A stretch of 37,517 nt of DNA from a virus, in the IMG/VR virus record IMGVR_UViG_3300030693_000022, positions 1 to 37,517 of that record. One strand, given 5' to 3'. Below the pieces are notes generated by a model. It saw nothing but the letters and a program-made list of their open reading frames with translations. It did not search any database and was not told the origin of the DNA. A program made the position numbers and the translations under genes. Below are positions 17,675-35,538 of this stretch, piece after piece. The number at the start of each line of letters is the position of its first letter. Within the stretch, counting starts at the first letter, position 1.

Positions 17675-17702
17675 AGTATAGATAGCTAAAGAGGGCTGTC
17701 AA
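17675..17702 (-). promoter_or_regulatory. Leftward sigma70-type promoter of the late operon
   Basis: On the minus strand: TTGACA (17697-17702), a 16-base spacer, then TATACT (17675-17680), six of six and five of six matches to the sigma70 consensus. Transcription should start near 17668, about 20 bases before the first gene. The spacer contains CTCTTTAGCT, which recurs on the minus strand at 17981-17990, and the TTTAG...CTATACT string matches other promoters of this phage. It probably drives terminase, head, tail and lysis genes. Confidence 0.85.
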
Positions 17703-18050: not shown

Positions 18051-18199
18051 GCGACACCTTTTTTCGATTTTAAAAGACCCCAAATTCATTTATTCTAATT
18101 CTAAATTATGTATATATACTGTCTATATAGATTCATAGTCTTTTATAAATCTTATAGAAGGTGTGAATGTTCTTAAAAATCAACGACTTAAGGTGTCGC
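18051..18199. repeat. Inverted AAGGTGT-type repeats bracketing an AT-rich block
   Basis: GCGACACCTT at 18051-18060 and its exact reverse complement AAGGTGTCGC at 18190-18199 flank 129 bases that are very AT-rich. Within this, AAGGTGTGAATG (18158-18169) is the exact reverse complement of CATTCACACCTT at 18320-18331, just upstream of the first early gene. The core heptamer AAGGTGT therefore occurs four times in the control region, two in each direction. This looks like iterons or operator sites for a phage protein, or an origin. Confidence 0.7.
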
Positions 18200-18270
18200 G
18201 AGAGGGGTGTAACGAGGGTAGTACGAGAGGGTGGTGTATCGACATTTTGGGGCTAAGTGCTAACGGGTGG

Positions 18271-18299
18271 TTGACTGGTGGCTTGATGTCGGCTAGACT
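18271..18299 (+). promoter_or_regulatory. Rightward promoter of the early operon
   Basis: TTGACT (18271-18276), a 17-base spacer and TAGACT (18294-18299). The -10 box is preceded by GGC, giving GGCTAGACT, the same string form as at other promoters of this phage. Transcription should begin near 18306 and run into the early genes. One AAGGTGT-type repeat (18325-18331) overlaps the leader and could be an operator. Confidence 0.72.
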
Positions 18300-18341
18300 T
18301 GCTTGTCGATTCTTGAATTCATTCACACCTTGGAGGTAGAA

Positions 18342-19292: not shown

Positions 19293-19610
19293 ATGACACT
19301 CACTGCATCCGACTACGACATGGCCCTCTACTTCCTCAAGGACAAGGGCGACATCACGCGCTGGCTCGACTGGGAGGAAAAGCGCGAGGCGCTGTGCCTG
19401 GCCGTTCCTGAGCTGAGCGACTGGCTGCTGATGGATCGGATGGTCAGATCGCTCAAGACCGCGATGATGGTCAAGCTGGAGGATTTCGCTTCTGCCGCGC
19501 CGGATCAGGAGCAGGATCCGTTCGGTGCACGCATGGTCATCCCTGCCTCGATGCCGGAGCACCTGAGGGCCGAAGCTGCCATCGCCAAGGCGACCGGGAG
19601 CCAGCCGTGA
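19293..19610 (+). CDS. Early protein sharing a DPFG...MVIP motif with the primase-helicase
   Basis: The 105-residue product has a helical N-terminal part (SDYDMALYFLKDKGDITRWLDWEEKREALCLAVPELSDWLLMDRMVRSLKTAMMVKLEDF) and, at 75-95, DPFGARMVIPASMPEHLRAEA. A nearly identical segment, DPFGESMVIPTNMPVHLKEEA, lies at 183-203 of the VapE-type primase-helicase (22634-24463): 14 of 21 positions match. The start is ATG 19293 with GGAG nine bases before it. The shared segment suggests that both proteins bind the same partner, or that this is a replication accessory factor; the frame is open upstream to 19044 without ribosome-site support. Function otherwise unknown. Confidence 0.7.
   Translation: MTLTASDYDMALYFLKDKGDITRWLDWEEKREALCLAVPELSDWLLMDRMVRSLKTAMMVKLEDFASAAPDQEQDPFGARMVIPASMPEHLRAEAAIAKATGSQP

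Positions 19611-21190: not shown

Positions 21191-21203
<13 letters not shown>
20913..21203 (+). CDS. DUF6948-type small phage protein
   Basis: The 96-residue product begins MTQSLIGKFVVVRTYSAGVHVGTLDAQNGKEVTLSNARRIWSWQGANTLNEIANKGVGKGSKVSDTVSMISLTEAIEII. The strings VVRTYSAGVHVGTL, RRIWSWQGANTLNE and ISLTEAIEII are typical of a small phage family that I recall as DUF6948. Function not known. ATG at 20913 has AAGGA upstream; the frame is open from 20814 but that part covers the tandem hairpins and has no ribosome site. Confidence 0.75.
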
Positions 21204-21325
<122 letters not shown>

Positions 21326-21362: not shown

Positions 21363-21461
21363 ATGCACCTGCTCTACCTGATCCACCGCGATGACGCACT
21401 CAACGCCGCCTGGGAGGCCTCCCAGGCGGGAGTGCCGATGACTTGGCTGGAGGCTGCATGA
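21363..21461 (+). CDS. Tiny protein, 32 residues, upstream of FtsK-gamma gene
   Basis: ATG 21363 to TGA 21459-21461 encodes 32 residues beginning MHLLYLIHRDDALNAAWEAS. It is not a membrane segment; it reads as one amphipathic helix with aromatic residues. Its TGA overlaps the next ATG (ATGA at 21458), so it is coupled to the following gene. No clear ribosome site is seen (ccaggactccc has AGGA at 9 bases). Function unknown. Confidence 0.5.
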   Translation: MHLLYLIHRDDALNAAWEASQAGVPMTWLEAA

Positions 21462-22060
21462 CCGCGACCATGACCGCACAAGAAGCCGCAGCAAGGATCA
21501 GAGAGGCGCTGGAGATGCTTGCTCAAAGAATCGAAAGGGCGGCGGGTCATCGCACCCTAGCCATTTCAGCTGAAGCAGCAGACGCTATCCGCGCTCTTCT
21601 GGCAGAGAGGGACGAGATGGCCAAGGATGCGGCGCGGCTGCAAGCACGGCTCGATGCGCTGGACAACCTTCCGGCCGAGGACTTCATCCGCAAGGTCGCG
21701 CGCCAGATGGGGTGCAAACCCGCACCTGGCGCCGGAGAGCCGCTGGCCGCCGATATGGTGCTTGTGCCGAGGGAGCCGACGAGCGAGATGCTGCACCGCG
21801 CCATGAAGGACTGCGGAGGCATCGGAGGTGGCTCCAACCCAGCATCCGAACTTGGCGTAAATGATCCTCTGATGCCCCAGGCCGTCGCTCTCGTGGCGGA
21901 ACATCGCAGAGCTTCAATCTCGCTGGTGCAGCGCTACCTGCGCATCGGCTACAACCGCGCAGCCTACATGCTCGAAGCGATGGAGAAACAAGGCATCGTG
22001 CGCGTCAATCCAACGCCGGGCGGCTCGCAGTACCTGATAGTGAAGGACACCCCGCAATGA
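21458..22060 (+). CDS. Phage protein with C-terminal FtsK-gamma winged helix
   Basis: The 200-residue protein has an N-terminal helical coiled-coil region (about 8-70), a middle segment with VLVPREPTSEMLHRAM typical of Ea22-like phage proteins, and, at 135-190, DPLMPQAVALVAEHRRASISLVQRYLRIGYNRAAYMLEAMEKQGIV. The last matches the gamma domain of FtsK, whose winged helix reads octameric KOPS DNA sites and touches the XerD recombinase in host chromosome segregation. Here it stands alone, without motor. ATG 21458 has GGAGG nine bases before it. A DNA-binding role is strongly suggested; its target is not known. Confidence 0.78.
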   Translation: MTATMTAQEAAARIREALEMLAQRIERAAGHRTLAISAEAADAIRALLAERDEMAKDAARLQARLDALDNLPAEDFIRKVARQMGCKPAPGAGEPLAADMVLVPREPTSEMLHRAMKDCGGIGGGSNPASELGVNDPLMPQAVALVAEHRRASISLVQRYLRIGYNRAAYMLEAMEKQGIVRVNPTPGGSQYLIVKDTPQ

Positions 22061-22633: not shown

Positions 22634-24463
22634 CTATTCCCCCTCGTCCCTCATCCACCGCCGAACCGATGACCTCACGTCCGAGTCGTAGGCCGTGACC
22701 TTGACCCAACCTCCAGCCTTGAGAATGTTGGAGATCCGCATCTGGCTGGAACGGTTCTGCTCGTTCATGCTCAGTTTGAGGTCTTCCATGATGCCCGGAA
22801 TAGTGACCTGGGAATGATTGGCGATGATGATCCGCACCCTCGCCTCCCACGGGTCGCCGACGTAGCGCTGCTTCTGCTGGCGCTCGGTCTCCTTGGTGGG
22901 CATCTCCCACCAGGTGTCACCGCGGTTGAAGCAGTGCATGGCCTCCGCGATCAACTGGCGGCGGTTGTCCCGGGCCAGATCAAGCCGGATGTCGCCGCAC
23001 TTGATGGGCCAGCCGTGGCGGAACCCCGTGGAGTCCATGTTGTAGTCGTCCTGGTTGGTCGAGCCGGCCAGAATGGAGGAGCGCGGATGGTCCTCGGCGT
23101 GACGTCCGTACGGCGGCCGGTAGCGGTCGCTGGCCGTTCGCAACGTCCTCTTGACGGAGTTCTCATCCGCCTTGCTGAACGACTGCAACTCGGCCACCTC
23201 GATGACCCACTTGCCGGCGAGCGTAATGGCGAAGTCATTGGAGTCCGGCGCCGCGGACATGATGGCGTACCAGCGGCCTCCGATGACCTCCAGCAAGGTG
23301 GACTTGCTCTTGCCCTGCTTCCCCTCCAGGATGACCATCGTGTCGAGCTTGCAGCCGGGCTTGAGGGCACGTGCGGCCAGGCCGATCCAGAAGTTGCGCC
23401 CCGCCGCGCGCGCGTAGTCGCTGTCGGGCGTGCCGGCGCAGTCAACGAAGAAGTGTTCGATGCGGCTGACCCCATCCCACGGCTCGATCTGGCCCAGGAA
23501 CTCCAGCAACTCGTTCTTGACGTTGCGGTAGGCGTGCTCAACGATCGCTTGGTGCACGATGTCGCGCGACACTTTGGCCATACCGTAGGCTCGCTGCAAC
23601 TCGATGGTGATGCGGATGTCGTCCGGGTCAGTCCAGTCGCGGGTCTCTTGGCGGTCTGCAGCGTGGGTACGAATCCGGCTCAAGAAGCTGTCGTACCACA
23701 CCATGTCTTTGTAGAAGCGCCCCAGGATCAGGGAGACGTTGGAGACGTTGGGAACAGGCTTGCCGGCGACCATGTCGAGCCCCGCATCCGTCCACCCCTG
23801 ATTGCCCATGCGCGTGGTCGTGTCGTCGCGTCGGGCCTTATCGAGCATGTCCAGCGCTTCCTCCTTGAGGTGCACTGGCATGTTGGTCGGGATGACCATC
23901 GACTCGCCGAAGGGATCTCTGATCTCCCCGTCGTCATCGGTCTGGACACGCTGGAGCCCACGCACGGGCTCAGGCAGCGGGATCGGACGGTCCATGAACA
24001 GGTCGAACCGGTAGTCCTCGTAGAGCCGCTTGGCGTCCGCGGCCGTCCACTCCTGCTCGTCTGACAGCGTCCAGCCGTCAGGCATGTGCGAGACCTTGAT
24101 CTCCTCCAGGCTGAAGCCCAGGCGGTCAAGCTCGCCCGAGACCATGTCCATCTCGTGCTGGGCCACGGGGTCATTGGACGGCAGCAGGATCGCGCTCAGG
24201 TTCTCCCGAGCCTTGAGCGCTGCCCAATTGGCCTGCTCCGACCGCTCGCCCGTCCAGGTGACGACTACGCAGCCGGGGAACAGGTTGCGCGCGAGTTCAG
24301 CATTGCGCACTGAGTCAACGACCAGTAGCGGAGCGTGGCCAACCTTGATCGCACGGTACAACTCGTAGACATCGCGAGGGTTGTTCGCTGCTCGAACAAT
24401 GGGCGCCTCCTCAGCGTCGTAACCCGCGAGCCACTCGTCATTTTCTTGGTGGCTGATAGCCAT
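22634..24463 (-). CDS. VapE-type primase-helicase with degenerate TOPRIM-like N-terminus
   Basis: A 609-residue protein. Residues about 45-150 have TOPRIM-like structure (PLLVVDSVRNAELARNLFPGCVVVTWTG and DGWTLSDEQEWTAADAKRLYEDY), but the catalytic Glu and DxD seem altered. Residues 183-203 are the DPFG...MVIP motif also found at 19293-19610. Residues 370-500 are the VapE/D5-like helicase core: Walker A EGKQGKSKST (380-389), Walker B WVIEVAEL (419-426), then VKRTLRTASDRYRPPYGRHAEDHPRSSILAGSTNQ. It should unwind DNA at the replication fork, possibly with primase activity. Its start overlaps the VRR-NUC gene by 26 bases. Confidence 0.85.
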   Translation of the reverse strand: MAISHQENDEWLAGYDAEEAPIVRAANNPRDVYELYRAIKVGHAPLLVVDSVRNAELARNLFPGCVVVTWTGERSEQANWAALKARENLSAILLPSNDPVAQHEMDMVSGELDRLGFSLEEIKVSHMPDGWTLSDEQEWTAADAKRLYEDYRFDLFMDRPIPLPEPVRGLQRVQTDDDGEIRDPFGESMVIPTNMPVHLKEEALDMLDKARRDDTTTRMGNQGWTDAGLDMVAGKPVPNVSNVSLILGRFYKDMVWYDSFLSRIRTHAADRQETRDWTDPDDIRITIELQRAYGMAKVSRDIVHQAIVEHAYRNVKNELLEFLGQIEPWDGVSRIEHFFVDCAGTPDSDYARAAGRNFWIGLAARALKPGCKLDTMVILEGKQGKSKSTLLEVIGGRWYAIMSAAPDSNDFAITLAGKWVIEVAELQSFSKADENSVKRTLRTASDRYRPPYGRHAEDHPRSSILAGSTNQDDYNMDSTGFRHGWPIKCGDIRLDLARDNRRQLIAEAMHCFNRGDTWWEMPTKETERQQKQRYVGDPWEARVRIIIANHSQVTIPGIMEDLKLSMNEQNRSSQMRISNILKAGGWVKVTAYDSDVRSSVRRWMRDEGE

Positions 24464-24830
24464 TGATCGCTCGGGTTAGATCGTCTACTGAAGACGCGAC
24501 GGTGGCGATGCCGCCGGCCTGGTTGATGGCCGCCACGAATTGCTGCTGTAGCTTCCATCGCTCGAATTGCTTGCCGGACTTGGGAGGTCGCCAGTCGGAG
24601 CCCTTGACCTCGCAGGCGGTGATGATGGCCACCGTTGCGCCCACCATCTCAGGCGTGATGACCTTCTCGCACCATCCGAGCAGGTCAGCGCCACCCTTGC
24701 CGCCCACGCCGTAGTGCACCCAACGGCCGGTCTCGTCTTGGTAGGCGCCGATGTTGTTGCGCAGAAGGCGCGCGCCGGCCTTGGGGGCTTCCATCTGGAT
24801 GTCGCGCTGGATCTCTGATTCGGCGGTCAT
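24438..24830 (-). CDS. VRR-NUC domain nuclease
   Basis: The 130-residue product has the layout of phage VRR-NUC (PD-(D/E)XK fold) nucleases: AESEIQRDIQ at the start, GVGGKGGADLLG (D49), ACEVKG (E74-x-K76), and QQQFVAAINQAGGIATVASSVDDL at the end. These proteins are structure-specific DNA nucleases used in replication or recombination and usually sit beside phage helicase genes. It lies between the SF2 helicase (ATGA overlap at 24827-24830) and the primase-helicase. Motifs are intact. Confidence 0.88.
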   Translation of the reverse strand: MTAESEIQRDIQMEAPKAGARLLRNNIGAYQDETGRWVHYGVGGKGGADLLGWCEKVITPEMVGATVAIITACEVKGSDWRPPKSGKQFERWKLQQQFVAAINQAGGIATVASSVDDLTRAINGYQPPRK

Positions 24831-26188
24831 GCGTGCCTTCGATTAAATATTTTCCACGCCCACCCAGGCTTGTACCCGCGCTCCTTGGCGAGCGTCATCA
24901 ACTCCGGCAGGGTCTTGGCCATCCCCTGCTCCTGGCGCTTCTTGATGGCCGCCTGACGCTCTGCCAGGGCCACCTCTTCCAACTCGCCCTCCTCGGCCTG
25001 CACCTCGCGCGCCTCGATGGGCCACTCCCACTTGCAGTAGGGGCAGATCATGGTGCCAGAGCGGGCAGCCGCGTAGCAGCCACCACAGGTGCGCACCGAC
25101 ATCTCGCCCGCCTTCTTCTTGGCCTTGCCGGTGGCCTCCTCGCCCAGGCTCCACTCGTGCACCTCGTCGGGGTAGCCGTGCCTGCCCGCGTTGCCCGCGT
25201 GGTCTAGGATGATGGCGTGGGTTTTTCCCGGGTGTCGACGAAGTGCGCGCCCGACCTGCTGGAGGTAGAGCGAGAGTGAAGCTGTCGGACGCAGAAGGAT
25301 GGCGACCTCGATGGCGGGGATGTCGAACCCCTCGGAGATGAGGTCGCAGGAGGTGAGGACTTTGATGTCGCCTCGGGAGAAGGCAGCGATGAGCCCCTTC
25401 CGCTCCTTGCGATCCATGCCCCCATCGATGCGGGCCGCCTTGACGCCACGCGCCTCGAATTCCAGAGCGACAGCCGCAGCGTGATCCAGAGACACGCAGA
25501 ACGCCACCGCTCGCTTACCAGCTCCACGCTTAAGGTAGTGATCGACGGCATTGCCCGTGATCGATGGTTTGTCCATGGCATTTTTCATGTCCTCCCGGTT
25601 GAAGTCGCCCATCCTCATGCGCATCTTGGCGATGGCAATGGGCGGGCAATAGAGCACGTAGTCAGACAGCCGCTCGCGTGCGATCAGGTCGGCAACAGAC
25701 AGGCCGAGAACCATGTGGGCGAAGTGCCCGCGCAGGGGTTTGCCGTCGAGCCGGATGGGGGTTGCCGTAACGCCCAGGACGTAGCACGTGGCGAAGTGAG
25801 CGAGGATGCGGCTCCACGTTGACCCCTGGCTCGCGTGGTGAGCCTCATCGAGGATCAACATGTCGGGAAGCGGGTAGTCCTGCATCCGGTTCACGAGCGT
25901 GAAGACGGAGCAGACCATCACCGGCTTGTAGGTCGAAGGCCGACCCGAGGCAACGAATCCATGCTCCACACCGAAGCTGGTCAGAGACGCGCTGACCTGA
26001 TCCATAAGCTCCTCGCGGTGCACGAGGATGTAGACGCTCTTGCCCCGCTTGGCGATGGAGTTTGCGAGGTAGGAAAAGCACACCGTCTTGCCCGATCCGG
26101 TCGGGCTGACAAGGAGGACGTTCTTGAACTGCTGGAACGCAGCCCGAAGCTCGCCGATCATGTCTTGCTGGTCGGGGTAGAGCTGCAT
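24827..26188 (-). CDS. SF2 DNA helicase (DEAH-type) with C-terminal zinc ribbon
   Basis: The 453-residue protein has the superfamily-2 helicase motifs in order: Walker A SPTGSGKT (28-35), DEAH (114-117), TAT (141-143), and motif VI QVGRALRR (311-318). After the helicase core there are two CxxC pairs (Cys368/371 and Cys382/385), a zinc ribbon that may bind DNA. It should unwind DNA during phage replication. ATG at 26188 lies 3 bases after the Cro-like gene stop, so it is in the same operon as the repressor and the nuclease. The helicase call is firm, the exact substrate unknown. Confidence 0.9.
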   Translation of the reverse strand: MQLYPDQQDMIGELRAAFQQFKNVLLVSPTGSGKTVCFSYLANSIAKRGKSVYILVHREELMDQVSASLTSFGVEHGFVASGRPSTYKPVMVCSVFTLVNRMQDYPLPDMLILDEAHHASQGSTWSRILAHFATCYVLGVTATPIRLDGKPLRGHFAHMVLGLSVADLIARERLSDYVLYCPPIAIAKMRMRMGDFNREDMKNAMDKPSITGNAVDHYLKRGAGKRAVAFCVSLDHAAAVALEFEARGVKAARIDGGMDRKERKGLIAAFSRGDIKVLTSCDLISEGFDIPAIEVAILLRPTASLSLYLQQVGRALRRHPGKTHAIILDHAGNAGRHGYPDEVHEWSLGEEATGKAKKKAGEMSVRTCGGCYAAARSGTMICPYCKWEWPIEAREVQAEEGELEEVALAERQAAIKKRQEQGMAKTLPELMTLAKERGYKPGWAWKIFNRRHA

Positions 26189-30007: not shown

Positions 30008-31354
30008 TCATGCCTCAAGTCCTTTTGCATACCCCATCGCCTGCAGCTGGGGCAGTTGCTTCACCATGCGCCCCCTGCCTATGTCTGTGCGGTAGAAAGG
30101 CGAGTTCGGGATTTTCACCTTCTTCAGAGCCGAGTACGCAGACCTCCTTGCTCCGGAGATTGTCTTGCCCGTTCCAGTGCACACCAGCACGTAGTCTCCC
30201 GACGTGACCCAGTGCGGCATCTCCACCACCTTGCCGTCGATCTCGACCGGTGCCTCGCCCATCATGATCTCTGAGGGGTGGATGTGCTCCAGGTCATCCG
30301 CGGCCCCGTACACAGGGATGCCGCACACCTCTTTGTTAGTGAGCTTCGAATATGGGAAGTCGGGGATCGCCATGACGACAGAGATACCGACCTCTCCCTC
30401 CTCAAACTCGATGGTGTCGCGACCATGAAGAAGATCAAGCATCCACTGAACAGGGTCGCCGCGCATCTGAGATATGACGTTGTGGCGAAGCGGCCATCCG
30501 TCGCGCATCGTCCACTCCATGGGCCACGGGTGGCCCTTGTCATCGATGATGCAGTTGTTGTCGATGTAGCCGACATATCCGATCTTCTTCAGGTATGGCT
30601 CGATGGGGTAAAGCACCTGATCGGCCAGCTTGCTCTTGAGCACCGGCCTGGTCAGCGTTCCCATCTCCCCGGTGGCAACCCCAAGGTCACCATTCATGAG
30701 CTTCTTGTTCTCCCAATTCTCGTAGAGCCACTTGCTCCAGCCGCCGGGGCCGTACCAGCCCCCGACCGCCATCTCTATGCCGACCTTCTTCTCCTGGAGG
30801 ATGAAGCCCTCGGCCTTCGCGGCTTTACGGAGGTCTTCGCGGCCCTTCCAGCGCTGGAGCATGTGAACCATGTCACCAGCGTTATGGGCCACGTAGCTGA
30901 GCGCCTTGTTGGCATCGCCGCTGGGCTTGGACACGAGCATCTCGGGATGCTTTTTGACGTGAGCGATGGCAGCGTCATAGTCGTGAAACGCGATGGACTG
31001 CATGATCTCAATTCCATGCTGAGCCATTAGCTTTTGGCCGTGCTCGCGGTCAAGCTCCATCTTGGCGGCGTCGAGACCGCCACAGAAGACCGGGTATCCG
31101 CGCTTGATGAGCGCGTCCATCATGTCCACGTAGTACGTGTTGTCGGGCATGTAGATGAGGTCTGCCCAGTCGAACCACTTGCGCTGCACCTCGTTGAGAT
31201 CGCGCACCTTGTTGATGATCCCCTCGCCCGACCGGCGCTGCTCACCACCGGGCCGCGGACGGTCGTACCACAGGCATTGATGGCCGTAGTCCTGGGCACG
31301 CATCAGCATGTCCAGGCAGTTGGAGGTCGTGTCGATGCAGAGGATGCGGCTCAT
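30008..31354 (-). CDS. PurD-like ATP-grasp ligase
   Basis: The 448-residue protein has the three PurD-type domains: an N-terminal Rossmann-like part (RILCIDTTSNCLDMLMRAQDYGH), the ATP-grasp core with VSKPSGDANKA (K143), ILQEKKVGIEMAVGG, GDLGVATGEMG (D223) and WPMEWTMRDGWP (E280), and the C-terminal domain DYVLVCTGTGKTISGARRSAYSALKKV...YRTDIG. PurD joins glycine to phosphoribosylamine in purine synthesis; in this relative the canonical E-x-N metal site is E-x-T. It may couple an amino acid or acid to another acceptor. The gene follows the gp16-like ejection gene (ATGA), so it is expressed with virion genes. Family call firm; substrate unknown. Confidence 0.82.
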   Translation of the reverse strand: MSRILCIDTTSNCLDMLMRAQDYGHQCLWYDRPRPGGEQRRSGEGIINKVRDLNEVQRKWFDWADLIYMPDNTYYVDMMDALIKRGYPVFCGGLDAAKMELDREHGQKLMAQHGIEIMQSIAFHDYDAAIAHVKKHPEMLVSKPSGDANKALSYVAHNAGDMVHMLQRWKGREDLRKAAKAEGFILQEKKVGIEMAVGGWYGPGGWSKWLYENWENKKLMNGDLGVATGEMGTLTRPVLKSKLADQVLYPIEPYLKKIGYVGYIDNNCIIDDKGHPWPMEWTMRDGWPLRHNVISQMRGDPVQWMLDLLHGRDTIEFEEGEVGISVVMAIPDFPYSKLTNKEVCGIPVYGAADDLEHIHPSEIMMGEAPVEIDGKVVEMPHWVTSGDYVLVCTGTGKTISGARRSAYSALKKVKIPNSPFYRTDIGRGRMVKQLPQLQAMGYAKGLEA

Positions 31355-33042
31355 TGCGAGTCAGGCGGTTTAGGTATCTGATTTTGCTGGAGAATCGCCG
31401 CGAGCAGTGCAGGATTGTTGTGGGCGACGGCGAGCGCCTGCTGATAGGTGCTCACGCGCGGGACGGTCTGGGGGATGGCCCAGTTGCGCTGGCCGTAGTC
31501 GGAGAGCAGAGCTTTGCGGGCGAGCGGGCGGCCCAGGAGCACGTCTGCGGCCGCTCCGAAGTGTCCTTGCGTTGCCGCCAGACCTGCCGCCCCCATACTC
31601 GCCACGCTGTGGTCTGCCGCGCCTCCTGTGCGGGCCGTCGACTGCAGCGCGCGAGGGTACTGGTTGGCCGCCGTGGCGATGGTCTTGGCGTTTCCAGACA
31701 GCGGCTTGTCGTTGCCCACCTTCGCCAGCTTGGCCGCATTGATGTTGCCCATCTCGTCGGCTGCGGCCTCGTAGTCGTAGGACTTGGCCACGCGCTGGCG
31801 GGCGGACTGGAACCGCCCCACTAGGTCGCTGTTGCCGGTCTTCTCCAGGCCGCGCCCCACGAAGTCCTCGAGCGCGTTGGCCGTCGCCTTCTGAGCCGCG
31901 CCCAGCTCGTAGTCGCCCTTACGGTAGCTCTCCGTCGCCTGCGCCCGGAGTGACTTGATCTTGGGCATCGCGTAGCCGGGCGGGTAGTCCGACTGCTGGA
32001 GCACCTTGTGCAGATCGGTGAACTCCTTCGGCAGCGTCTTGCCCTCGTGCTGAGCGATGGTCGAGCGCTCCGACCAAATCTTGTCCGCGGCGTTGCGCAG
32101 CTGGTCGTCCGTGCGCCAGACGGGATTGCTGCCTTGAGGCCCGGCCGCGCCCCTCATGCCAACGCCCTGCTTGGTGGCCTTGTCCGCGTCGGTGATCTCC
32201 TTGACGATCGATCCGTACTCCTCGCGGATGGGCTTGAGGTTGGCCGGCAGGATGGGCGTCCCCTCGGGCAGTCCAAGGTCCTTGGCCGCCAGCTTGGGCA
32301 GCGCTGCCTCGTTCATCGCCGACGCCTGGTGCTCGGTCGCCGTCTTGCCGCCGATCCAGCCCAGCACCTTGGCAACAGGCGACGTCGTGCCGGTCATCTG
32401 GGGCGGCACCTTGATGCCAGAGTCGACTGCCTGCTTGGGGATGGTGACCTGTGGGGAGTCGGGGGCGAACTTGGGAGGCGTTGCGATGCCCCCCTCGTTG
32501 GCCTTGGCCGCTTTGACGCCGAGGAATCCCGGCGCTTGGTTGATCGCCTCATGCACACCCGCGCCGACCATCTGGCGCGCGGTGCCCGGTTCTCCGTAGT
32601 TGATCGCCTTCTCTGCGCCGGAACCGACCGCATCGACACCCTTGCCGATGAGCGACAGCGGGTTGTACTGAGCGATGGCCTTTCCGGCTGGCCCGGAGGG
32701 TTGGTAGGTCAGAGCGCTGCGCACGGAGTCGCGGAATCCCTGAGCATTCCCCTCGGGCTTGTCCCGGAGCGCATCCCGAGCCATCGCCGCCCCGCCCATG
32801 ACGTCGGACACAGGCTTGGCGATCATCCCGCTCGCCATGTTCAGCCCAGCCTCTCCGACCGGCCCCAGGATGGCGCTGATCACGCTCTTTAGCGCGGACG
32901 GCTTGGCGTCGTTCTCGGCCTCCTGCTTGGCGAGCCAGGAGGTATCGGGCTTGGATGGTGCGGCCGGCTTGGCCCAGTCAGGCACCGAGCCGGCACCGGA
33001 GGCAGCAGGCTTGGCCCAGTCGGGGACTTGTTCGCCAGCCAT
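31351..33042 (-). CDS. Putative ejection (internal virion) protein, P22 gp16-like position
   Basis: A 563-residue protein, mostly Ala/Gly/Lys-rich helix-forming sequence. It begins with two copies of VPDWAKPAA (about 6-14 and 20-28), a weak hydrophobic region (ALKSVISAILGPVGEAGLNMASGM), a long soluble body and a C-terminal part with AAGLAATQGHFGAAADVLLGRPLARKALL. Composition and its being third in the operon of three large internal-type proteins match P22 gp16, which enters the cell with the DNA. Start ATG overlaps the previous stop (TGATG). No enzyme motif found. Function by context. Confidence 0.65.
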   Translation of the reverse strand: MAGEQVPDWAKPAASGAGSVPDWAKPAAPSKPDTSWLAKQEAENDAKPSALKSVISAILGPVGEAGLNMASGMIAKPVSDVMGGAAMARDALRDKPEGNAQGFRDSVRSALTYQPSGPAGKAIAQYNPLSLIGKGVDAVGSGAEKAINYGEPGTARQMVGAGVHEAINQAPGFLGVKAAKANEGGIATPPKFAPDSPQVTIPKQAVDSGIKVPPQMTGTTSPVAKVLGWIGGKTATEHQASAMNEAALPKLAAKDLGLPEGTPILPANLKPIREEYGSIVKEITDADKATKQGVGMRGAAGPQGSNPVWRTDDQLRNAADKIWSERSTIAQHEGKTLPKEFTDLHKVLQQSDYPPGYAMPKIKSLRAQATESYRKGDYELGAAQKATANALEDFVGRGLEKTGNSDLVGRFQSARQRVAKSYDYEAAADEMGNINAAKLAKVGNDKPLSGNAKTIATAANQYPRALQSTARTGGAADHSVASMGAAGLAATQGHFGAAADVLLGRPLARKALLSDYGQRNWAIPQTVPRVSTYQQALAVAHNNPALLAAILQQNQIPKPPDSQ

Positions 33043-34544
33043 CAGGGATCGATCCCGAAGTGCGCCTTGAACTGCGCCTTCATCTCAGGGTGGGCCTTGA
33101 CGTAGGCGATATCGTCCGCACTCGGCTTGGGTTGCCCCGGCGCCGTGTTGCGGTTCTTGCGCAACTCTGTCGCCACGTCCTGGGGTGCCTGCCGGCCGCG
33201 ATCCATTTCCTTGCGCATCACCGCCACCTTGGCCGCGAACGCCTCAGGGCTGTCCGATGCTGCCAGCAACTCGCGCGCGTGCTCCTTGTCGCTGACGGTT
33301 GCAGTGCCCTTGGGGTTGATCGACCGAGCGTACTCGTTGACGAACGTGTTGATCGACGTGAGGAATGCGCCCGTAGCCGGATCGTTGGCTTCCGTCTTGC
33401 CTGCGATGATGGCCTTGTTGAGGCTGCGCCAGTCACCTCGAGGCACCTTGGAGGCGGCATCCATCATGATGTCCGCGCCGCCCTGTGCCGCGCCTGCTGC
33501 GATGGCCGTGTTGGCGCCGGCTGCACCTGCGGTACGCATTCCGGAGGTCTCGAATGCGTTGTCTGCCGCGTAGTTCTTCATGTCGTATTGCGGGTTGATC
33601 TTGAGCGCCTTCTCCAGCACCTTCTCCCGCAGACCACCCTTGGTGCTGAGAGACTTCGGATCGACCTTTCCTGCTGCGACGGCCTGGGCCACAAGGTCAA
33701 CGTCCCCCGGATCGGCGGACCCGCCACCAGAGGCCGCCTTCTGAACGCGAGCCTTGGCCGCCTTCGCCTCGTTGAGATCGATCTGAGACTGACGCAACGG
33801 CGCCTTGGCATCCGGTGCGGCGCCCTCCATCCGATCCTCTGCGCGCCCCTTGCGCCCGGCGTCCTGACCCGCGATCTGAGCACGCAGCCCCGCGCTATCC
33901 GCCTGTTCCTTGCGCAGCATCAGGTTGAGCTCGGCCAGTTGCTGCTTTCCCTCCTGCGAAAGCATCTCCTTGTGCTGCATCAGCGCGTAGTACAGCGGCA
34001 TGCCGGTGATGCCCTGCTCCTGCAGCTTGGAGGCCATGTCATGCAGGTTGGGCAGCGCAGACTGGATCGCCGCCGTGACCTGGGGAGGCGGCGGCGGGAG
34101 GCCCTGGGATGGGTCTTGCCCTTGGGGTGGCGGCTGGAGGCTCTGAGGGGCCTGCTGGGTCGGTTGCTGGGGCGGTGCCTTGGGTGAGGTGTAGGGCGGC
34201 AACTGCGGCGGTTGCTGCTGCTGAGGAGGGGGCCCCATCTGTTGCGGCGGCGGCCCCATCTGCCGGCCCGGCATCTGACCGGGCGGCATCATGGGCGGGC
34301 GCTGCTGGGGCGGTATGCCTTGCGGAGGCTGCGGCATTCCCTGCCCTTGAGGGGGCATCGGCTGCGACTGCGCGCCGGGCGGGGGCGGCAATGGTGGCGG
34401 GGGCTGAGCGATCGTGTTCGCCCACGCCGACAGACCCTGGTTCTGCTGGTTCTGCTGGTCGATCAGCTGCTGATAGCGAGCTCGCTGAGTGGCCTCGTCA
34501 AGGCCCTCGTAGTAGCCAGAGACTGCGCTTCCGTAGAGTGGCAT
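33042..34544 (-). CDS. Putative ejection protein with Pro/Gln-rich N-terminus, P22 gp20-like position
   Basis: A 500-residue protein. After a short folded start (SAVSGYYEGLDEATQRARYQQLIDQQNQQNQGL), residues about 48-160 are a Pro/Gln/Met/Gly-rich low-complexity segment (PPPPLPPPPGAQ..., MPPQGQGMPQPPQ). The rest is charged and helical (about 165-500). Such disordered, Pro/Gln-rich proteins are common among phage internal proteins that must unfold to pass through the tail. It follows the first ejection gene with 1 base between stop and start and precedes the third. P22 gp20 is 471 residues. Role by context. Confidence 0.65.
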   Translation of the reverse strand: MPLYGSAVSGYYEGLDEATQRARYQQLIDQQNQQNQGLSAWANTIAQPPPPLPPPPGAQSQPMPPQGQGMPQPPQGIPPQQRPPMMPPGQMPGRQMGPPPQQMGPPPQQQQPPQLPPYTSPKAPPQQPTQQAPQSLQPPPQGQDPSQGLPPPPPQVTAAIQSALPNLHDMASKLQEQGITGMPLYYALMQHKEMLSQEGKQQLAELNLMLRKEQADSAGLRAQIAGQDAGRKGRAEDRMEGAAPDAKAPLRQSQIDLNEAKAAKARVQKAASGGGSADPGDVDLVAQAVAAGKVDPKSLSTKGGLREKVLEKALKINPQYDMKNYAADNAFETSGMRTAGAAGANTAIAAGAAQGGADIMMDAASKVPRGDWRSLNKAIIAGKTEANDPATGAFLTSINTFVNEYARSINPKGTATVSDKEHARELLAASDSPEAFAAKVAVMRKEMDRGRQAPQDVATELRKNRNTAPGQPKPSADDIAYVKAHPEMKAQFKAHFGIDP

Positions 34545-34545
34545 A

Positions 34546-35538
34546 TCAGTCTCCAGACCCGCCGCTGCCGCCGCTCAGGTCGTTGTTCGCGTACTGGCTT
34601 CCGTCCGATCCGTAATAGGAGTTCCCGGAGTTGAGCGACGACGGGCTGTTGAACCAGCTGCTCAAACTAGACCACGGCGTCTGGCCGCTGGAGTTGGCAG
34701 TGTTGAGTCCGCCTACCGCGTTGCCCAATCCCTTCAACGCTCCGGCCTGCTGCTGGGCCGCGAACTGGTTGCCGGCGAGGGTGTTGCTGTAGGCGTTCGC
34801 GCCGGCCCCGCTGCCGTAGTTCATGTAAGGGATAGCCTGGTTTTGCTGCTGCTGATACGGCGACATGGCCGTGGCCAGACCGGATGCATAGGCTGAGGCG
34901 TTGGCGCCAGGCTGAGCCGCGGCGTACTGCTGCGCGGTGAGCGGGATCTGGCTCGCCTGCCCCTGATCCTGAAGTCCTTGCTGGCTCAGCGCGGCCAAAC
35001 CCTGAGCGCCCTGTGTTTGGCGCTGCAGCTGCTGGTTCTGCCAATCGATGTTGAAATTCTCGTTCGCCTGCTGCGCCATCCCCGCGCCCGCGCCCGACTG
35101 CCCCAGCCCGTACTGGCTGGAGATCGCGTTGGCCTGATCCCCGACCTGCTGCTGCGTTCGGTTGTACAGAGCCTGCTGCGGGTCGAACGCCGTCTGATAC
35201 AGCTGCTGACCAGCCTGCTGCAGCTGCTGACCAGCCGCCCCATAGGATTGCCCCAACTGCTGTTGCTGCTGTACGTACGGCTGGTAGTTGATCGCGTTGG
35301 CTTGCTGCAGGGACTGGTACAGCCCCTGGTCGGAGATGTTGTTCAGGCCTCCGTTGGCGTTGAGTTGAGACTGATCGGTGGACTGGTTGCCCTGCCACCC
35401 CGCGTCCGCCCCACTCAGGCCGGTCGGCGTGTACATGGTGTTGCCGGCTCCACCTGTGGTGCCAGTCTTTCCGCCACCCGAGGTCGAGTTGGCGGCTCCG
35501 TAAAGTGACGCGGCAGCGCCTATCCAGGCCGCCGGCAC
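34546..35538 (-). CDS. Putative ejection protein, Gln-rich, P22 gp7-like position
   Basis: A 330-residue protein with start GPAAWIGAAASLYGAANSTSGG-like (GTG at 35538 is read as Met), then a Gln-rich region (about 60-230, for example QQQQQLGQSYGAAGQQLQQAGQQLYQ) and a Ser/Gly/Asn-rich tail ending GGSGGSGD. It has no cofactor or membrane signature beyond a short Ala-rich start. It is the first of three ejection-type genes in this operon. GGTGG lies five bases upstream of the GTG. An upstream five-codon frame from ATG (35553-35555) ends just before it. Function by context. Confidence 0.62.
   Translation of the reverse strand: MPAAWIGAAASLYGAANSTSGGGKTGTTGGAGNTMYTPTGLSGADAGWQGNQSTDQSQLNANGGLNNISDQGLYQSLQQANAINYQPYVQQQQQLGQSYGAAGQQLQQAGQQLYQTAFDPQQALYNRTQQQVGDQANAISSQYGLGQSGAGAGMAQQANENFNIDWQNQQLQRQTQGAQGLAALSQQGLQDQGQASQIPLTAQQYAAAQPGANASAYASGLATAMSPYQQQQNQAIPYMNYGSGAGANAYSNTLAGNQFAAQQQAGALKGLGNAVGGLNTANSSGQTPWSSLSSWFNSPSSLNSGNSYYGSDGSQYANNDLSGGSGGSGD

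Follow-up and report, generated by a model that had tools for sequence, protein, structure and literature searches.

Why do a 105-residue phage protein of no known family and a VapE-type helicase from the same genome share a 21-residue peptide? The two proteins are encoded in a 37,517-base virus record, which we analyzed over its whole length and refer to as the window. Matches to terminase, head-tail adaptor, head, tail-fiber, and internal virion proteins suggest that the virus is a podovirus. Leftward-running structural genes start from 16.7 kb. A rightward cluster spans 18.3 to 22.6 kb, where it meets head-on a leftward cluster that starts at 26.2 kb. The leftward cluster encodes a RadD-like helicase, an endonuclease of PHROG 93, and, as its final gene, the VapE helicase (P0001). 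The gene for the small protein (P0002) is the third in the rightward cluster, beside an AT-rich, putatively regulatory region. The features that the question turns on are:

19293..19610, + strand: P0002, 105 amino acids, a helical core followed by a C-terminal tail (from its translation; residues 1-41 resemble orf59T of Vibrio phage VP16T)
19515..19577, + strand: motif copy 1, P0002 residues 75-95, in the C-terminal tail (DPFGARMVIPASMPEHLRAEA; missing from the VP16T and VP16C homologs)
22634..24463, - strand: P0001, VapE-type helicase, 609 amino acids (PF05272, E = 5.7e-60; PHROG 256 DNA helicase, E = 2.3e-72)
23855..23917, - strand: motif copy 2, P0001 residues 183-203, in the linker that precedes the helicase domain (DPFGESMVIPTNMPVHLKEEA)

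The shared peptide and its rarity

DPFGARMVIPASMPEHLRAEA of P0002 and DPFGESMVIPTNMPVHLKEEA of P0001 are identical at 14 of their 21 residues; at the DNA level, 44 of 63 nucleotides agree. The original prediction had reported this match, and we recovered both copies at the protein level. It had placed the helicase copy correctly (residues 183-203, 23855-23917 on the other strand), and the end of the P0002 copy as well (19577), but its start for the latter, 19518, was one codon late; the motif begins at 19515. With P0002 as the query, tblastn against its own 37.5-kb genome found the P0001 copy at E = 2.2e-5. When we compared 41 predicted genes (our own selection) all against all, P0002/P0001 was the top ungapped pair, with a score of 77 versus 59 for the next pair. 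The best pair that 150 residue-shuffled proteomes produced had a score of 66. The shuffles already largely refute the idea that the likeness is chance or a low-information phage pattern, and we give that idea almost no credence.

Two observations could still be cited for chance. First, in a cruder six-frame all-against-all comparison, the P0002/P0001 pair ranked second (E = 1.6e-4), behind a pair whose frames overlap with other genes (E = 1.4e-4). Because an overlapping-frame pair ranks first, we consider phmmer E-values to be too generous in six-frame comparisons within this GC-rich genome. Second, the window gene at 21443-22060 encodes a loosely similar stretch, 'MVLVPREPTSEML', but this VPREPT-like stretch has no score against either copy. 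We considered 'VPREPT..ML' as a diverged form of the motif and rejected it: it is similar by eye, but the scores of the single VPREPT example against both copies do not support it. The N-terminal 'SVPREFMPDVV' of the VP16T homolog was rejected likewise, as its similarity by eye is unsupported by scores. The product of 21443-22060 has a C-terminal winged helix of the FtsK gamma type (PF09397, E = 5.2e-19) as well as the 'DMVLVPREPTSEML' stretch.

The original prediction had asked for a search of other phage and host proteins and had allowed that the motif might turn out to be a common low-information pattern. A strict DNA pattern for DPFG...MP had no matches in 84,980 species genomes, and none of the looser matches in IMG/VR from outside this genome was a real copy; among the matches listed, those to the looser patterns were unrelated frames alone, which speaks against a common pattern. 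Specifically, FGxxM[V]xPxxMP matched five stretches in IMG/VR, of which two were from this genome and three were copies of one unrelated frame. The same pattern matched at least 100 stretches in the species genomes; by eye, 0 of the 100 matches listed had DP before it or xHL after it, and no relative of P0001 or P0002 was among the matches listed. (Profile and phmmer scores for these genome stretches derive solely from the query motif itself.) For the first half of the motif, DPFGxxM[V]xP, IMG/VR had 21 stretches, two of them our own, and the second half was in 0 of the other 19. For M[V]xPxxMPxHL there were 30 stretches, again with two of our own, and DPFG was in 0 of the other 28. The best of these matches, L235, proved to be a shadow frame within a gene with His/Asp-rich repeats. 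Two others (L200 and L205) have DPFGGKM[VL]VP in long frames of another make-up, which we judged by eye to be coincidence.

Other approaches gave the same picture. A motif profile found no copy in any of 80 VapE loci, and a 39-residue motif query matched nothing in a tblastn search against phages. We found no literature on the motif, judging by titles or the openings of abstracts; searching for DPFG with phage returned unrelated work only. Two IMG/VR contigs also carry the P0001 and P0002 genes, with 99.9% identity to the window over the parts that we compared. Both come from a single metagenome source and both end near 21.2-21.3 kb, so, being so nearly identical as well, they are not independent of the window. 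Within the collections that we searched, the peptide thus appears as private to one genome.

Although the amino acids of the two copies are alike, their codons are not. The same codon is used at 6 of the 12 identical residues other than methionine, and 5.8 would be expected from a random draw on the phage's codon usage. By the Nei-Gojobori method, pS is 0.63 and pN is 0.20. Codon agreement at the random level, together with the low pN, implies that the peptide rather than the DNA is conserved: synonymous sites between the copies are saturated while the amino acids were held. It follows that the motif is either an old copy kept by protein-level selection or a peptide that arose twice under the same demand, and neither origin is compatible with a recent, idle duplication. 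A recent duplication at the DNA level is ruled out by the randomized synonymous positions. We also considered that the likeness is left over from an exchange of a short stretch, copied from one gene to the other, and has no present function. The raw identities (14/21 residues and 44/63 nucleotides), the restriction to one genome, and the lack of a known partner would all suit this reading, but a non-functional leftover should not keep its amino acids while its synonymous positions are randomized, so we consider it very unlikely.

The helicase and its linker

The original prediction described P0001 as a VapE-type primase-helicase. The helicase part of this description stands, and the primase part is doubtful. 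The relevant regions are:

24119..24376, - strand: TOPRIM-like region of P0001, residues 30-115 (from a pairwise alignment with the primase-helicase of Burkholderia phage Mica)
22871..23482, - strand: VapE-like helicase domain of P0001, residues 328-531 (PF05272; the Walker A lysine, EL, and arginines are kept)

The PF05272 match (residues 328-531, E = 5.7e-60) places P0001 among the VapE-like helicases. In an alignment of 21 sequences, the ATPase residues K387, E422, E425, L426, R461, and R482 are conserved or nearly so. The Walker A motif seemed broken at first sight, as the glycine before the lysine is a serine in P0001, but relatives vary here too: 3 of the 20 have Q, N, or K instead of glycine. 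Both by sequence and by fold, the nearest solved structure is 7pds, the SaPI helicase PriRep1 (fold match, E = 2.8e-19). P0001 shares the helicase core (PF05272) with PriRep1 and with other VapE-type helicases. It differs from them in its N-terminal part and in the linker, and the motif is missing from the 80 VapE loci.

Upstream, in the single low-identity pairwise alignment with Mica, DSV replaces EGE and SND replaces the DxD-type pair of the TOPRIM domain. The catalytic acidic residues of an active TOPRIM domain are thus not found in P0001, an observation of moderate weight. Nor is there an upstream zinc-binding domain, as residue 11 of P0001 aligns to residue 176 of the Mica protein, which leaves no room for one. 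A Pfam search found no Toprim match in P0001, and a closer VapE relative (L017) gave no BLASTP alignment to the TOPRIM-like region. With moderate weight, these comparisons suggest that the N-terminal domain of P0001 is a dead primase domain. We recognized no other primase among the window proteins that we scanned.

In 76 of 80 loci, VapE relatives start to resemble P0001 at residue 221-225; the start is at 197, 207, 234, and 234 in the remaining ones. Motif copy 2 stops about 20 residues short of this conserved helicase region. Because a TOPRIM-like domain precedes the motif and a region that is conserved in relatives follows it, we place copy 2 in the linker between the TOPRIM-like and helicase domains. 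In the AlphaFold2 model of P0001, pLDDT is 24-36 over residues 121-220, and residues 197-218 form a predicted helix. The model of P0002 has a non-helical, low-confidence stretch at 66-88 and then a helix at 89-100; pLDDT by block is 40-63, and the model as a whole was too poor for a fold search. In both models, at low confidence, each motif copy consists of a loose stretch and then a helix, and both copies are predicted to lie in a linker or tail instead of a folded core.

We also asked if a VapE linker peptide is shared with another gene in other phages, and found no convincing case among the 87 loci that have a VapE frame. Weak matches turned up in seven of them, of which we aligned four (L033, L090, L095, and L096) and left out three (L021, L026, and L034). 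In three IMG/VR loci, the C-terminal segment of the VapE helicase does recur in a second protein encoded there. The other proteins (L090:4531-5436, L095:3437-4282, and L096:115-939) are of the Bro-N type, an assignment that comes from a scan for two of the three, with L096 left out of the scan; the 35-45 residues that they have in common with VapE contain QM.VG...LG+.R....G.RPW.Y. These pairs resemble P0002/P0001 in that a segment of the helicase is common to another protein of the same phage, and they show that segments of VapE helicases do occur on other phage proteins. They differ from P0002/P0001 in that the segment is C-terminal, the partner protein is another one, and the phages are others.

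The small protein and the orf59T family

P0002 has no match in Pfam, PHROG, NCBIfam, or PDB. Its N-terminal part, however, is not unique to this phage:

19293..19415, + strand: N-terminal core of P0002, residues 1-41 (common to proteins of VP16T, VP16C, and VP_EVC_2013)

Over residues 1-41, P0002 and Vibrio phage VP16T orf59T are 49% identical (E = 9e-7). A three-sequence alignment has 19 invariant positions, and YF..KGD.TRW.DW.EK is kept. Given this core and the E-value of 9e-7, P0002 belongs to the VP16 orf59T family. Across orf59T and its VP16C counterpart orf56C, the core is about 60 residues, with 41-49% identity to P0002 over 41 residues. Unlike P0002, orf59T, orf56C, and the VP_EVC_2013 protein have no DPFG-MVIP tail and have an N-terminal extension (SVPREF... 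in the VP16 phages) instead. Because the VP16T and VP16C homologs have the core but not the tail, the tail of P0002 is an added module.

More distant searches found little. Relatives of the P0002 core were found in 0/369, 0/299, and 0/385 bacterial genomes of three groups and in 0/7 others, in searches that had no positive control. In IMG/VR, P0002 found only itself and orf59T found no relatives. On plasmids, P0002 had nothing beyond weak matches (E of 4-8). Family searches detected no similarity of P0002 to the helicase loaders DnaC, DciA, or lambda P.

The gene neighborhood of orf59T is more informative. VP16T encodes orf63T and orf59T on one strand, with orf59T the fourth gene to follow orf63T. 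VP16C has the same gene order, with the orf59T homolog after the VapE helicase gene. In both phages, the cluster with orf59T or orf56C includes a VapE helicase; nearby, as in the window, lie genes for a RadD-like helicase and a nuclease. In the window, these last two genes are:

24438..24830, - strand: endonuclease-like gene of the helicase cluster (PHROG 93; the VP16T homolog is 29% identical over 97 amino acids)
24827..26188, - strand: RadD-like SF2 helicase gene of the helicase cluster (family matches; VP16T orf44T is 35% identical over 413 amino acids)

On the evidence of these matches and gene orders, members of the orf59T/P0002 family accompany VapE replication genes in each of two phage groups. 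(The product of orf63T, L010:1386-3761, is annotated as a putative integrase, but it matches Prim-Pol, PriCT-2, and VapE.) We found no peptide shared between the VP16T helicase orf63T and orf59T, so the core of the P0002 family needs no shared peptide in that phage.

What the peptide may dock on

We think it very probable that the peptide is a real, selected docking element. P0002/P0001 is the top pair among 41 genes, the synonymous sites are saturated, the copies lie in a linker and a tail, the tail was added to an existing core, and the family is linked to VapE in VP16T and VP16C. As a docking module, the 21 residues would form an extended strand (DPFGxxMVIPxx) and then an MP-capped helix (MPxHLxxEA), a form that the models predict weakly. 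The original prediction had suggested that the peptide docks to a common partner, such as a clamp or SSB. That it is a selected and uncommon peptide in a linker and a tail agrees with our results; the specific clamp and SSB versions do not. Neither P0001 nor P0002 matches even a loose pattern for the beta-clamp binding motif (of the type Qxx[LMI]x[FL][FL]). An SSB-type tail is acidic, is C-terminal, and ends in Pro-Phe, while these proteins end in RDEGE and GSQP and both copies are internal.

As for what it docks on, we tentatively favor the helicase ring, with P0002 copying the linker of the helicase. In P0001, the linker peptide would dock on the ring, on either its own or a neighboring subunit, and the tail of P0002, as a copy of this linker, would occupy the same groove. 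The tail would thereby tether the helical core of P0002 to the helicase and make P0002 a phage-encoded helicase partner, whether a loader, a clamp, or a brake. Both the docking on the ring and the direction of P0002's effect are inferred. The models of both regions are poor and no contact with the ring is visible in them, which counts against this reading, as does the VP16T pair, which has no shared peptide; and the motif pair is known from one genome only. Also, since 0/80 VapE relatives have the motif in their linker, any ring-docking element must be a private one.

We propose that P0002 carries a linker copy and binds the ring because of an analogy to the linker of Twinkle and to the loaders of DnaB. 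Twinkle and DnaB belong to a different helicase superfamily from VapE, so the comparison is about how these proteins work and not about membership. No small protein is known to copy the linker of Twinkle, nor are the loaders DnaC, DciA, and lambda P known to reproduce the sequence of a helicase linker. In PMC9723800, Twinkle is described as having a TOPRIM-derived domain, with no primase activity detected, and a linker helix between its N- and C-terminal parts that lies in a groove of the neighboring helicase domain. P0001 would work like Twinkle in having a dead primase domain and, in its linker, a helix that packs against the adjoining subunit. According to PMC9912922, DnaC, DciA, and lambda P bind to the linker-helix module of DnaB; like the proposed P0002, they are small proteins that engage a ring helicase where its linker helix lies.

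Almost equally open, and almost as likely as the helicase ring, is a common third partner. Both copies would then dock to one replication protein of the host or phage, such as the host primase or SSB, for recruitment or in competition. The evidence for a selected linear peptide fits a third partner just as well, and a peptide in the linker is free to contact such a partner. Furthermore, with a degenerate TOPRIM domain, primers must come from elsewhere, for instance from the host primase. On the other hand, the known clamp pattern is in neither protein and the peptide is not an SSB-type tail; the absence of the strict pattern from all 84,980 genomes implies that it is not a close copy of a host protein's peptide.

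If the helicase ring is the target, P0002 could bind the same site with the opposite effect. It would compete with the helicase's own linker and block the assembly or loading of the ring, perhaps as a late shut-off of replication or to exclude a second phage. We would expect a monomeric tail that copies the linker to compete by default, and the P0002 gene is in a separate, convergent cluster, which would allow different timing. But the family members in VP16T and VP16C are in the helicase gene cluster, which favors a partner over an antagonist. We consider both the inhibitory action and these purposes for it to be improbable.

The most specific form of the ring-docking proposal is that the phage took the inter-domain linker of its ring helicase, placed a copy on a small protein, and thereby seats that protein on the ring as a loader or brake. 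We regard this as possible but somewhat unlikely. If it is true, then a helicase partner was built from the helicase itself, and the core of P0002 and orf59T represents a new family of helicase partners. Docking of peptides on replicative helicases is already known; the new element is a small phage protein with the helicase's own linker peptide. Such a protein would tie an orphan family to replication and offer a 21-residue probe for the partner. It is also a functional lead for the unstudied orf59T family of the VP16 phages. So far, the motif is known from one metagenomic genome.

The rightward cluster that contains the P0002 gene begins beside a stretch that might be a replication origin or a divergent control region:

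18054..18331, no strand: candidate origin or regulatory region upstream of the P0002 cluster (from AT content and AAGGTGT sites)

This is the AT-richest stretch of the window, with 80 of 100 nucleotides being A or T at 18084 versus 57 for the next best elsewhere. Four of the window's five AAGGTGT sites flank it, as inverted pairs, and it lies between promoter-like sites that face leftward (at 17702) and rightward (at 18271). Farther along, at about 21200-21325, there is a short repeat that codes for Gly/Ser, which is where both IMG/VR contigs of the same genome end. Finally, the window gene at 30008-31354 has weak, above-cutoff matches to the ATP-grasp and C domains of phosphoribosylglycinamide synthetase (GARS), and it adjoins large genes (31351-35538) without family matches.
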